Shown here: positions 390-4,969 of the stretch, one piece after another
Position numbering within the stretch: position 1 is the first letter of the stretch
Layout of the letters: each line of letters starts with the position of its first letter
Source: Flavobacteriaceae bacterium
GTDB lineage: Bacteria > Bacteroidota > Bacteroidia > Flavobacteriales > Flavobacteriaceae
NCBI GenBank assembly: GCA_029265595.1
Contig: JAJUIC010000001.1
Coordinates: 19,530-83,529 of the forward strand
Reading direction: 5' to 3'
DNA length: 64,000 bases
Translations under genes and position numbers: made by a program
The notes under the pieces: generated by a model
Seen by the model: the letters and a program-made list of their open reading frames with translations, nothing else
Told to the model about the DNA's origin: nothing
The model's database searches: none

Positions 390-848
390 ATGAGTGTCAA
401 TAAAGAAAAGGTCTTCTATAAGTGCCTGGACGAGGTGAACCGGCAAATTGAAAAACACCAGGCTAAATTAGATGAAATCAGCGGATACAATGAAGAAAAC
501 AATATGCATCCTGATTTCGATGAGTATGGAAACAAGGGAGAAATGTTCAACACTTATGAGCAGCATACCTCTTATCTGGATAACGCTCAGAAGATGAAGG
601 AGACGCTTGTCAATCTGGATACGGACCTGACCCACCGAAGTACGACTATCGGTCCTGGGAGCTTAGTGGAGACAGAGGAACATTATTACTATATCTCCGT
701 GCCCCTGGGAGAGTTGGAACTGGACGACGGGAGCCGGGTATACGCCATTTCCACGGAGGCTCCTATTTATCAGGAGCTTGAGAACCTCAGGGAAGGAGAT
801 CACTTTACCTTTGACGGAAAGGAGCACCGAATAGTCGGTATCTTCTAG
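390..848 (+). CDS. GreA/GreB-like transcription factor (short Bacteroidota type)
   Basis: A 152-residue soluble protein. Residues 1 to about 80 are polar, helical and likely coiled-coil. Residues about 88-152 form a small beta domain (PGSLVETEEHYYYISVPLG, then YAISTEAPIYQELENLREGD and a closing basic strand) that resembles the FKBP-like C-terminal domain of GreA/GreB. GreA/GreB rescue backtracked RNA polymerase. This short family is widespread in Bacteroidota and, from memory, is sometimes mislabelled as a 3-oxoacyl-ACP synthase; nothing here supports that label. An earlier ATG at 373 runs into a stop after a few codons, so ATG 390 is the start. Whether the coiled coil still enters the polymerase channel cannot be told from sequence. 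Confidence 0.6.
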   Translation: MSVNKEKVFYKCLDEVNRQIEKHQAKLDEISGYNEENNMHPDFDEYGNKGEMFNTYEQHTSYLDNAQKMKETLVNLDTDLTHRSTTIGPGSLVETEEHYYYISVPLGELELDDGSRVYAISTEAPIYQELENLREGDHFTFDGKEHRIVGIF

Positions 849-870: not shown

Positions 871-2916
871 TTATTCGGGGTATTCAATACGCAGGTGAAA
901 AATATTCTGAAGTTTTCGTTTCAGGACTTTTTTCACCTTTTGTATTTCCATAAAGGTGATGTCGGCATTGAGGAACTGCCCCTCCTCCATTTGTTTGTCG
1001 ATGATTTTCTCCACGAACTGATCGATGAGTTTGGTGGTGGGTTCCTTCAGGCTTCTGCTGGCTGCCTCTACGCTGTCACACATCATTAGGATAGCCGTTT
1101 CCTTACTGAAGGGAATGGGACCGGGATACCTGAAATCCTCCGGATTGACCTGGGCATCCGTCTCTTTGGCCTTCATATAGAAATAATAGACGGTGGTGGT
1201 ACCATGATGGGTGCGTATAAAATCGATGACACGGTCCGGAAGGTTCCGTTTCTTGGCAATTTCAATCCCATGAATGACATGTTCTATTATAACCTGCGCA
1301 CTTTCATGTGGAGACAATTCATCGTGTGCGTTGACATTGGTCGTCTGGTTTTCTGTAAAGAACGGCGCATTTTTCATTTTCCCGATATCGTGGTATAGAG
1401 CTCCTACCCGTACCAACATGGAATTTGCACCAATTTCATTGGCGGCAGCCTCCGCCAGGTTTGCCACATTGAGGGAGTGGTGAAAGGTACCGGGAGCTTT
1501 ATCTGACAGCTCCTTTAGCAATTTGGAATTGGTATCGGAAAGCTCCAGCAGAGACATATCCGACATGAGCCCAAAAATCTTCTCATAGGCATAGATCAGC
1601 GGCTGCACAAATAAAGTGGCAAGACCTCCCAGAAGGAACATCAGGAAAGTTTCAAACTGAATTTGTGCCACAGCGCCTTCCTGAATGATGGTGAAGGCGA
1701 AATAGGCAATAATATAGACCAGGGTTATCTGACCCACGGCGATGAATAAATTGGCCCGTTTGTAGAGCTGAGAAAAAGTAAGAATGGTCACTATTCCGGC
1801 AATAATCTGCAGGAACATATATTCATAACTGTCGGGAACAATAAAGCCCAGGAGCAGCACCGTGATGATGTGCGTGAGAAGTCCCAATCTGGAATCAAAG
1901 AAGGCCTTCAGAGTCAGCGGCAGAATACACAGGGGCACGACATAAACCAGGTTGACATTGAATCTCAGCACCAGGGTCGTTAGCAGGACCATTAAAAGGA
2001 GATTGAAGAAGATAAAAGTAACCTTGGTGTTGTTTTCATAAATATCGAAACGGTACTTGCGGATAAAAAGCAGCAGCATCAACAACGCCAAAAATACCAG
2101 GGTGCTATAGCCAAAAATAACCCAGTTGTAGCTGGCTTCACTCCACAGTTGGGACTCGTATTCCGTTTTAAGAGAATTGAGGATCCGGAGTTTGTTACCC
2201 TCCACCACCTCCCCCTTGGAGACGATGATGGTCCCGCGCTCCACACTGCCCCTGGTATAAGAAATCTGGTCGTACTTGCTCTCCAGTTCCCGAAGTGTCA
2301 GTTCCTCATTGTACCGTACATTTGGATATACATTGTTAAAGAATAGCTCTAATAAAGGAGCTCTATAATCTTGGAAATTAGTGCTATTAATGCGCTGTAT
2401 AATGTAATTTCGCAGCTGGTGCTGTTTCAGGATTTCACTATAAAGCACCTGGGTTACTTCATTGCCCTCTCGAAGGTAGATCATTTGCTCGGGGTCCTGC
2501 TCCTGACTCTCCTGTAACAGGCCCTTACTATAAATTTCGGAAGCCGTTACATCTACAAAATTCCAGAGTCGCGTACGCTGGTATTGCGGAATGGAATCCG
2601 GAAATACCACCGGAAATTCTTCAGCCAGATCTTGTTTAACGGAATCCACGGCGGTGGGATCATAATCATAATAGGGCATGTGTTCCTGCCGAATCTGGTC
2701 CCGTTCCTGCTGAATTTCTTCCGGGGTTTTGAGTATGGCAAAATCAAAGGGTGCGTACAGGTTTTCGTACTGCCAGGGTTTGCCTTTTGGAATCTCATAC
2801 TTGAACTTGCCTCCTTTAGGAAACAGGTACACGATCAGCACCGTCGTGAGAAGAAATAAAAATACTTTATAGAATAAGGCCTGGTTCTTATAAAGGTATT
2901 CTACGAACTGTTTCAT
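871..2916 (-). CDS. 7TMR-HD family membrane phosphohydrolase (PgpH-like)
   Basis: 681 residues. An N-terminal membrane anchor (about 15-33) is followed by an extracytoplasmic domain of about 220 residues (7TMR-HDED type). Then comes a block of seven hydrophobic segments (about 265-450) and a C-terminal cytoplasmic HD domain. The HD metal site is visible: HHSLNVA, then the HDIGK motif with H509 and D510, then HH in IRTHHGT. In Firmicutes, PgpH enzymes of this architecture hydrolyse cyclic di-AMP; this activity is inferred here. The gene is divergent from the thiolase and has a perfect -7 box upstream. It converges on the Gre-like gene with a gap of 22 bases. Confidence 0.88.
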   Translation of the reverse strand: MKQFVEYLYKNQALFYKVFLFLLTTVLIVYLFPKGGKFKYEIPKGKPWQYENLYAPFDFAILKTPEEIQQERDQIRQEHMPYYDYDPTAVDSVKQDLAEEFPVVFPDSIPQYQRTRLWNFVDVTASEIYSKGLLQESQEQDPEQMIYLREGNEVTQVLYSEILKQHQLRNYIIQRINSTNFQDYRAPLLELFFNNVYPNVRYNEELTLRELESKYDQISYTRGSVERGTIIVSKGEVVEGNKLRILNSLKTEYESQLWSEASYNWVIFGYSTLVFLALLMLLLFIRKYRFDIYENNTKVTFIFFNLLLMVLLTTLVLRFNVNLVYVVPLCILPLTLKAFFDSRLGLLTHIITVLLLGFIVPDSYEYMFLQIIAGIVTILTFSQLYKRANLFIAVGQITLVYIIAYFAFTIIQEGAVAQIQFETFLMFLLGGLATLFVQPLIYAYEKIFGLMSDMSLLELSDTNSKLLKELSDKAPGTFHHSLNVANLAEAAANEIGANSMLVRVGALYHDIGKMKNAPFFTENQTTNVNAHDELSPHESAQVIIEHVIHGIEIAKKRNLPDRVIDFIRTHHGTTTVYYFYMKAKETDAQVNPEDFRYPGPIPFSKETAILMMCDSVEAASRSLKEPTTKLIDQFVEKIIDKQMEEGQFLNADITFMEIQKVKKVLKRKLQNIFHLRIEYPE

Positions 2917-3028: not shown

Positions 3029-4207
3029 ATGAATAAAGAAGTGGTTATAGTAAGCGCAGCGCGCACCCCCATTGGAAGTTTTATGGGAAGTTTATCTTCT
3101 GTCCCGGCTACCAAACTGGGTGCCATTGCCATTAAGGGCGCCTTGGACAAAATCAATCTCAAACCTGACCTGGTGGAAGAAGTTTTGATGGGAAATGTCG
3201 TTCAGGCAGGTAACGGTCAGGCTCCTGCCCGGCAGGCGGCTCTTGGTGCCGGAATTCCTCATTCGGTACCCTGTACCACTGTAAATAAAGTATGTGCCAG
3301 CGGTATGAAAGCCGTCATGCAGGCTGCTCAGGCGATTCGTCTGGGAGATGCTTCTGTAGTGGTTGCCGGTGGAATGGAAAATATGAGTCTGATTCCCCAC
3401 TATGTTCATATGAGGCAGGGTCAGAAATTCGGGCCTGCAACTCTTGAAGATGGGATGCAGAAGGATGGATTGGTGGATGCCTATGATCACAATGCCATGG
3501 GCGTCTCTGCAGATTTATGCGCGCGGGAAAATAATATCTCTAGAGAAGAGCAGGATCAATTCGCCATTCAGTCTTATGAACGATCCAGGCGGGCCTGGGA
3601 AGCTGGAAAATTCGATCAGGAAGTGGTGCCGGTTGAAGTTCCTCAGCGCAAGGGGGATCCGATCGTTGTGAAGGAAGATGAGGAATACAAGAATATCCGA
3701 ATGGACAAACTCTCAGGACTTCGTCCTGCATTCTCCAAAGATGGAACCGTAACAGCCGCCAATGCCTCCACTATTAATGACGGGGCTGCTGCACTGGTTC
3801 TGATGAGCCGGGAGAAAGCTCAGGAACTGGGCCTGAAGGTGCTGGCAAGCATCAAGGGGTTTGCAGACGCCGCGGGAGAACCCCAATGGTTCACCACAGC
3901 TCCGGCCAAAGCCTTGCCAAAGGCTCTTGAAAAAGCCGGTGTAACTCAGGACCAGGTGGACTATTTTGAACTCAATGAAGCTTTTTCCGTAGTGGGTCTG
4001 GTGAACATTCAGCTACTGGGACTGGATCCTGAAAGAGTCAATGTGAATGGAGGAGCCGTTTCTCTGGGGCATCCCCTTGGATGTTCCGGAGCGAGAATCA
4101 TCATGAGCCTGATGAGCGTCCTGGACCAGAACAACGGAAAACTAGGAGCTGCCGCAGTCTGTAATGGCGGAGGTGGTGCATCGGCTATGGTTATTGAAAG
4201 AGCTTAA
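3029..4207 (+). CDS. Acetyl-CoA C-acetyltransferase (thiolase)
   Basis: 392 residues, the usual length of the biosynthetic thiolase family. It starts MNKEVVIVSAARTPIGSFMG. Catalytic residues are visible: nucleophile C89 in VNKVCASGM, the NEAF motif, H348 in GHPLGCSG and C378 in CNGGGG. These numbers coincide with the classical Zoogloea-type thiolase. It condenses two acetyl-CoA to acetoacetyl-CoA or runs the reverse reaction. The cytoplasmic enzyme is followed after 18 bases by the NlpC/P60-like gene on the same strand, which suggests co-transcription without an obvious functional link. Confidence 0.93.
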   Translation: MNKEVVIVSAARTPIGSFMGSLSSVPATKLGAIAIKGALDKINLKPDLVEEVLMGNVVQAGNGQAPARQAALGAGIPHSVPCTTVNKVCASGMKAVMQAAQAIRLGDASVVVAGGMENMSLIPHYVHMRQGQKFGPATLEDGMQKDGLVDAYDHNAMGVSADLCARENNISREEQDQFAIQSYERSRRAWEAGKFDQEVVPVEVPQRKGDPIVVKEDEEYKNIRMDKLSGLRPAFSKDGTVTAANASTINDGAAALVLMSREKAQELGLKVLASIKGFADAAGEPQWFTTAPAKALPKALEKAGVTQDQVDYFELNEAFSVVGLVNIQLLGLDPERVNVNGGAVSLGHPLGCSGARIIMSLMSVLDQNNGKLGAAAVCNGGGGASAMVIERA

Positions 4208-4225: not shown

Positions 4226-4969
4226 ATGACATACGGAATATGCAATCTTAGCATGGTTGCACTCAGAAGAGAACCCGGTCATCAGTCTGAAATGATCAAT
4301 CAGGTTCTCTATGGGGAATCTTTTGAAATTTTGGAGCAGCAGAAAACCTGGTCTTTCGTAAAACTGCTGGCTGACTTATTTGAAGGCTGGATTGATAACC
4401 ATCAATTCCTTCCGGCCTCGGCCGATCAGTGTGGGATGGATCAGGAATTGCTCCTGTCAGCAGACCTGATGGAATTTGTCACTGACCCGCAGGAGCAGCT
4501 CATTCCCATTCCTATCGGGTCAGTTCTCAATACCCTGCCTGCCATCAACCATCGGTTTTTGGGGCGCCATACTTCAGGAAAAAAAGAGAAATCAAATCTT
4601 TTGCAAACGGCCTATTTGTATCTGAATGCTCCCTTTCTCAAAGGAGGACGAAGTCCTTTTGGGGTGGACGCGGACGGCCTGAGTCAGATGGTTTACCGGC
4701 TCAGTGGATATGATCTTCCCCGGGTGGCTCAGCTTCAGGCCCAGCATGGGGAATCCCTGAGCTTTATCGAAGAGGCTGAAGCTGGTGATCTGGCTTTTTT
4801 TGACAATGAGGAAGGGGAAATCAATCATGTGGGAATACTGATGGATGATAACCACATTCTACATGTTTCGGGAAAAGTCCGAATCGATCGGTTAGATCAT
4901 CTGGGAATCTACAATCCAGAGACCCGTCGTCATACCCATAAGTTGCGGCTGATCAAGAGGATTTTTTAG
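4226..4969 (+). CDS. NlpC/P60-like protein with SH3 domain, catalytic Cys missing
   Basis: 247 residues. The N-terminal part (about 1-65) is a bacterial SH3-like fold (MVALRREPGHQSEM, then FEGWIDNHQFLP). Residues about 125-247 are an NlpC/P60 (C40 peptidase) domain, recognisable from GRSPFGVDADGLSQMVYRL, GDLAFFDNEEG and INHVGIL. Family members normally have D-C-S-G at the first motif, with Cys as nucleophile. Here the codons at 4667-4678 give D-A-D-G, so residue 149 is Ala. H201 and H213 are kept. No signal peptide is evident. The fold suggests peptidoglycan-peptide binding, but hydrolysis by the normal mechanism is not possible. It lies 18 bases after the thiolase gene. Confidence 0.85.
   Translation: MTYGICNLSMVALRREPGHQSEMINQVLYGESFEILEQQKTWSFVKLLADLFEGWIDNHQFLPASADQCGMDQELLLSADLMEFVTDPQEQLIPIPIGSVLNTLPAINHRFLGRHTSGKKEKSNLLQTAYLYLNAPFLKGGRSPFGVDADGLSQMVYRLSGYDLPRVAQLQAQHGESLSFIEEAEAGDLAFFDNEEGEINHVGILMDDNHILHVSGKVRIDRLDHLGIYNPETRRHTHKLRLIKRIF

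Follow-up and report, generated by a model that had tools for sequence, protein, structure and literature searches.

A YkfC-type gene lacking its catalytic cysteine

The window (the whole 64,000-nucleotide stretch of DNA that we analysed) comes from a Flavobacteriaceae MAG of 2.08 Mb that is 75% complete and divided into 210 contigs. Near one end lies an open reading frame that begins with ATG, contains no internal stops and encodes a protein of 247 residues, referred to here as the window protein. The gene, its neighbors and the residues discussed below are as follows.

871-2916, reverse strand: 7TM-HD protein (PgpH-type HD hydrolase), divergent; a neighbor of the NlpC gene from Flavobacteriaceae to several Bacteroidales
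3029-4207, forward strand: acetyl-CoA C-acyltransferase (thiolase), its end 18 bases short of the NlpC start
4226-4969, forward strand: Cys-less SH3b-NlpC/P60 (YkfC-type) gene, 247 aa, the window protein (ORF translation, Pfam, AF2 model)
4256-4402, forward strand: SH3b1 domain, residues 11-59 (Pfam SH3_16 / SH3_3)
4379-4381, forward strand: F52, replacing the SH3b Tyr that binds the substrate amine (BcYkfC Tyr118; 3h41 alignment, PMC2954226)
4631-4900, forward strand: NlpC/P60 domain, residues 136-225 (Pfam PF00877, 59 bits)
4634-4642, forward strand: F137 and K139, replacing BcYkfC Tyr226 and Trp228 of the S1/S2 pocket (3h41 alignment, PMC2954226)
4667-4678, forward strand: D148-A149-D150-G151, replacing D-C-S-G (sequence; 3h41 alignment; residue roles from PMC2954226)
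4721-4726, forward strand: R166 (kept, = Arg255) and V167 (replacing Asp256) (3h41 alignment, PMC2954226)
4826-4828, forward strand: H201 (= His291), invariant in 68/68 non-Cys orthologues (alignment)
4862-4864, forward strand: H213 (= His303), invariant in 68/68 non-Cys orthologues (alignment)

By sequence the protein belongs to the NlpC/P60 family, scoring 59.1 bits against PF00877 (cut-off 23), and SH3_16 matches residues 13-59 above its curated cut-off. The catalytic Cys-His-His positions, in contrast, are occupied by A149, H201 and H213. An earlier note on this DNA had reported D-A-D-G in place of D-C-S-G and the presence of both histidines; each observation holds, the codons at the first site being GAC GCG GAC GGC. 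A profile alignment to 3h41 pairs A149 with Cys238 and D150 with Ser239 of BcYkfC. Because its nucleophile is missing, the window protein is predicted to have lost YkfC-type peptidase activity on murein peptides. The only further NlpC/P60 protein that we found in the source MAG has an ordinary DCSG motif.

In almost all Flavobacteriaceae loci examined, the gene order is 7TM-HD, thiolase, NlpC, TPR, gyrA and clpC, with the thiolase adjoining the NlpC orthologue, and the 7TM-HD gene is next to the orthologue in several Bacteroidales as well. This retained order identifies the NlpC copies as true orthologues. The gene is nearly universal, with a match in 195 of 201 family genomes, a count that includes paralogues. 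PgpH-type proteins form a c-di-AMP phosphodiesterase family; from gene order alone, we would guess that this 7TM-HD protein, the oldest gene neighbor, is a partner of the window protein. Further upstream, a GreA/GreB-like ORF of 152 aa (390-848, forward strand) has no Pfam match; the congeners examined have it next to the 7TM-HD gene, and the other loci compared lack it.

Fold and predicted location

The AF2 model of the window protein has a mean pLDDT of 95.8, and its top Foldseek matches in the PDB (4r0k, 3npf, 3pvq and 3h41; TM-score by query 0.81-0.82) have the YkfC-type SH3b plus NlpC/P60 fold. The protein thus shares both domain arrangement and fold with BcYkfC (3h41) and the Bacteroides YkfC / dipeptidyl-peptidase VI structures (3npf, 3pvq/4r0k). 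No signal peptide was seen in it, and since the first SH3b strand of the model starts at residue 2, there is no room for one. We predict from the model that the protein is cytoplasmic. Most Cys-form orthologues also begin in this way, without a signal peptide. The chlamydial YkfC (CT127) is similarly a predicted cytosolic recycling peptidase with no signal peptide (PMC9928106), but it is active and, unlike the window protein, has its catalytic Cys172 and S1/S2 pocket conserved (PMC9928106).

Pocket residues vary around a retained core

The structure of BcYkfC with bound L-Ala-gamma-D-Glu identifies its substrate contacts (PMC2954226). The acidic Asp256 and the SH3b Tyr118 bind the free N-terminal amine of the substrate, and Asp237 and Arg255 maintain a network of internal hydrogen bonds (PMC2954226). 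We scored six pocket positions, namely Tyr118, Tyr226, Trp228, Ser239, Asp256 and the small residue 257. The complete YkfC recognition set (PYLWGG, DCSG, RDAS and the SH3b Tyr) is found in most Cys-form orthologues, and all six positions are kept in 76 of 107 Cys forms. In 56 of the 68 non-Cys forms, by comparison, three or fewer remain. From Cys to non-Cys forms, D167 falls from 92% to 18%, Y52 from 86% to 13%, S150 from 100% to 57% and W139 from 97% to 63%.

The window protein keeps one of the six positions. Although the rest of the domain had been thought intact, F52, F137, K139, D150 and V167 stand in place of Y, Y, W, S and D, so that the pair corresponding to Asp256 and Tyr118, which is present in most Cys orthologues, reads V167 and F52. 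What it retains is the core of the fold, consisting of D148, R166, H201 and H213 together with the GDL and FFD motifs. These four residues (= Asp237, Arg255, His291 and His303) are found in 100% of the 68 non-Cys forms. The earlier suggestion of a peptidoglycan-binding role is unlikely given the lost muropeptide-recognition residues and the absence of a signal peptide, while a regulatory or scaffold role may be considered as a candidate.

The few non-Cys copies with intact or near-intact pockets are all Ser forms (DSSG), one base from Cys; L167, L150, L131, L185 and L088 keep five or six of the six residues. As a group, Ser forms have more pocket residues left than Ala forms do (Mann-Whitney p 0.04, with relatedness ignored). 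Since intact pockets occur with this one-base change, the comparison fits an order in which the Cys would be lost first and the pocket decay later. One orthologue, L224, runs counter to this order, as its pocket is relaxed though the Cys is still there.

Recurrent absence of the cysteine in Flavobacteriaceae

The Cys is absent from all 12 genomes of the genus, which carry DADG, DSSG, DAGG or DASG. DADG, put forward as a possible signature of a subclade, was therefore rejected as a clade marker; the common feature is the missing Cys. Nor is this strain alone, as the 11 other congeners and 30 further genera also lack it. We scanned 400 family genomes with DNA patterns for the A, G, T or Ser (AGY) forms and for the Cys form, and found a non-Cys form in at least 42 of them, from 31 of 237 genera, and the Cys form in 245. 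Those genomes outside the scan patterns that were read had further non-Cys or Cys forms. No genome among the 400 carries both a Cys and a non-Cys form.

Among 199 distinct aligned orthologues, 131 have Cys and 68 do not (43 Ala, 21 Ser, 2 Gly, 1 Asn and 1 Asp). On an orthologue tree built without the active-site columns, parsimony requires 19 changes in the Cys trait, 12 of them on well-supported branches. These counts alone give no direction of change; because the Bacteroidales outgroup copies have Cys, with the single exception of L128, loss of an ancestral Cys is the likely one. This reconstruction puts the number of separate losses of the same Cys within Flavobacteriaceae at about a dozen or more. 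Any artificial clustering of relaxed sequences in the gene tree may hide losses rather than create them.

Several individual records deserve mention. L175 (G121:C5:208627-209673) is a Cys form with DCSG and RNAA that is nested in a non-Cys clade, which implies either a set of neighboring independent losses or a regain of the Cys. Two records seem to be mistitled: L093, called a 'Chitinophaga pinensis' MAG, has a locus of flavobacterial type, and L068, called a 'Kordia' MAG, has a gene 96% identical to a Polaribacter gene. A search for viral relatives of the window protein found none.

Non-Cys copies evolve faster and remain constrained

No orthologue used here, Cys or non-Cys, has an internal stop. 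For pairs more than 80% identical, dN/dS is 0.014-0.118 among non-Cys forms and 0.019-0.137 among Cys forms. These values are rough, as many synonymous distances are near saturation, but close pairs agree (e.g. 0.053 for L040-L041); the window copy has no relative close enough for a value of its own. Sequence comparison thus places the family of non-Cys copies under purifying selection. Relative to the adjacent thiolase, the NlpC protein diverges 1.84-fold in Cys-Cys pairs, 2.50-fold in non-Cys pairs and about 2.1-3.7-fold between the window protein and its congeners. Non-Cys lineages evolve faster, the window lineage most of all, and constraint is relaxed but not absent. Overall, with conserved synteny, unbroken copies and dN/dS of 0.01-0.12, the gene does look like a pseudoenzyme under selection rather than a decayed gene, as the earlier note proposed.

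A likely correlation of cysteine loss with a YkfB-like gene

An intact YkfC that includes SH3b domains is also encoded in the source genome (L246, 11832-13049); it has a lipobox-like LLLVGC, DCSG and RDAS. This lipoprotein YkfC lies side by side with a dipeptide-epimerase-like gene on contig 107 (11832-14085, reverse strand). The YkfB-like neighbor has the MR_MLE fold; its closest resemblance is to DgcA and L-Ala-D/L-Glu epimerase, with scores under the curated NCBIfam cut-offs. Pairs of ykfB and ykfC were noted in Bacteroides and Gramella by Xu et al. (PMC2954226).

Across the 400 genomes scanned, a close relative of the YkfB-like gene occurs in 43 of 52 non-Cys and 66 of 256 Cys genomes. A likelihood test of the two traits on the gene tree preferred a model in which Cys loss depends on the YkfB-like gene, and with named genomes added it gave p 9e-10 (irreversible) and 3e-7 (reversible), although tests of this kind can be inflated by few events. 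Within the mainly-Cys clade, 10 of 13 separate losses occur with the YkfB-like gene, against a background of about 0.28 (p 4e-4). In the hold-out named genomes alone, the association with YkfB was absent (3/7 versus 11/31, Fisher p = 1); many of these genomes are small, possibly incomplete MAGs. An independent-pair test restricted to well-supported branches went in the expected direction without reaching significance (3.6 same and 0.2 opposite of 6). We regard the link as a likely correlation only, one that hints at redundancy of the peptidase step.

Two simpler explanations were set aside. Of 40 non-Cys genomes, 24 have a strong match to the lipoprotein YkfC, against 4 of 40 Cys genomes; this protein is thus associated with Cys loss, yet on its own is neither required for it nor enough. 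Nor does loss of the Mpl ligase of the recycling pathway discriminate, since Mpl-model ligases occur in 80 of 80 genomes; these matches include MurC, and none exceeds the Mpl curated cut-off.

The neighborhoods of the YkfB-like gene that we compared fall into several contexts, with no one common partner. At L251-L263 and L268-L270 the epimerase-like gene has no adjacent lipoprotein YkfC and often lies beside a PLP-enzyme-like gene (cluster c1); some of these c1 loci also have an M14-like peptidase (c9), both names coming from reading the sequences. Four small MAGs (L075, L085, L088 and L092) have the non-Cys form apparently without the epimerase.

Candidate roles of the Cys-less protein

We think that the window protein is probably a cytoplasmic YkfC-type (gamma-D-Glu-diamino-acid endopeptidase-like) pseudoenzyme in which catalysis has become dispensable and whose retention reflects a non-catalytic role. 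Where another route processes recycled muropeptides, their cleavage in the cytoplasm would no longer have been needed, and the intact lipoprotein YkfC with its adjacent dipeptide-epimerase-like protein could be this route in the source genome. The Cys would typically have changed to Ser or Ala, with decay of the pocket afterwards. The gene itself would be kept by a non-catalytic function, most likely the binding of a protein partner through a conserved surface; we rank partner binding first among the possible functions, ahead of a repurposed pocket and, after that, a muropeptide sensor. More tentatively, the whole orthologue family may have a second function that does not depend on the Cys and resides in a conserved surface or in the invariant Asp-Arg-His-His core; the peptidase could then be given up repeatedly in lineages that degrade muropeptides in a different way. 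If true, a moonlighting recycling enzyme would have been pared down, a dozen times or more, to its second function.

It is doubtful, though worth considering, that D148, R166, H201 and H213 form a repurposed site that works without Cys, either binding a new ligand or catalysing another reaction. The Asp, the Arg and both His are invariant in 68/68 non-Cys forms while the surrounding pocket varies, and RipD has lost its His positions too (PMC12067865), which indicates that the fold does not demand them. However, invariance alone is unremarkable, being shared by about 29 of the 247 positions among non-Cys forms; the network of Asp237 and Arg255 in YkfC may be structural, and the lining of the pocket differs between close relatives.

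As a sensor, the protein would, as proposed for RipD, bind peptidoglycan peptides in its pocket without cutting them, and would report cell-wall turnover. RipD (4jxb), the known NlpC/P60 pseudoenzyme, is a mycobacterial protein that is non-catalytic and binds peptidoglycan, with Ala83-Ser132-Glu144 in place of the catalytic residues (PMC12067865). In both RipD and the window protein, an NlpC/P60 domain has Ala where the catalytic Cys would be, but RipD is a cell-wall protein of a single lineage, whereas the window protein is predicted to be cytoplasmic, retains both His, carries an SH3b domain and belongs to a family with recurrent loss; it scores only 17.8 bits against the RipD model NF033743 (cut-off 215). 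A sensor would account for the retained fold and histidines and for the few DSSG copies with nearly complete pockets. The residues that recognize the free amine and gamma-D-Glu are nevertheless replaced in most non-Cys forms, the window protein included, and the intact-pocket cases look recent, leaving us to consider this role improbable.

That the gene is simply on its way out is very unlikely. The accelerated evolution of the window lineage, whose copy has too distant relatives to give a dN/dS, would agree with decay, but we rejected it for the family because the orthologues are free of stops, have dN/dS far below 1 and are retained through the genus and most of a larger clade. It is less plausible still that Ser or another residue acts as a replacement nucleophile and the proteins remain peptidases, as the 21 Ser forms are outnumbered by 43 Ala and 2 Gly forms, the window protein itself has Ala, and Ala and Ser alternate within one genus. 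A sequencing or assembly error, conceivable in a fragmented and incomplete MAG, can be discounted almost entirely: the congener genomes and those of 30 other genera independently lack Cys at the same position, and, where the earlier note reckoned with at least three base changes, three are needed from any Cys codon (TGY) to GCG and a further two from Ser to Asp.

A pseudoenzyme usually originates as a paralogue alongside an active copy. Here, a single orthologue, in constant gene order and under continued selection, has repeatedly lost the nucleophile, and we found no paper in the open-licence literature that describes this flavobacterial case. Automatic annotation of the gene as an active C40 peptidase would mislead in at least one in ten Flavobacteriaceae genomes. 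The repeated loss amounts to a natural replicate experiment on the other roles of a muropeptide-recycling enzyme.
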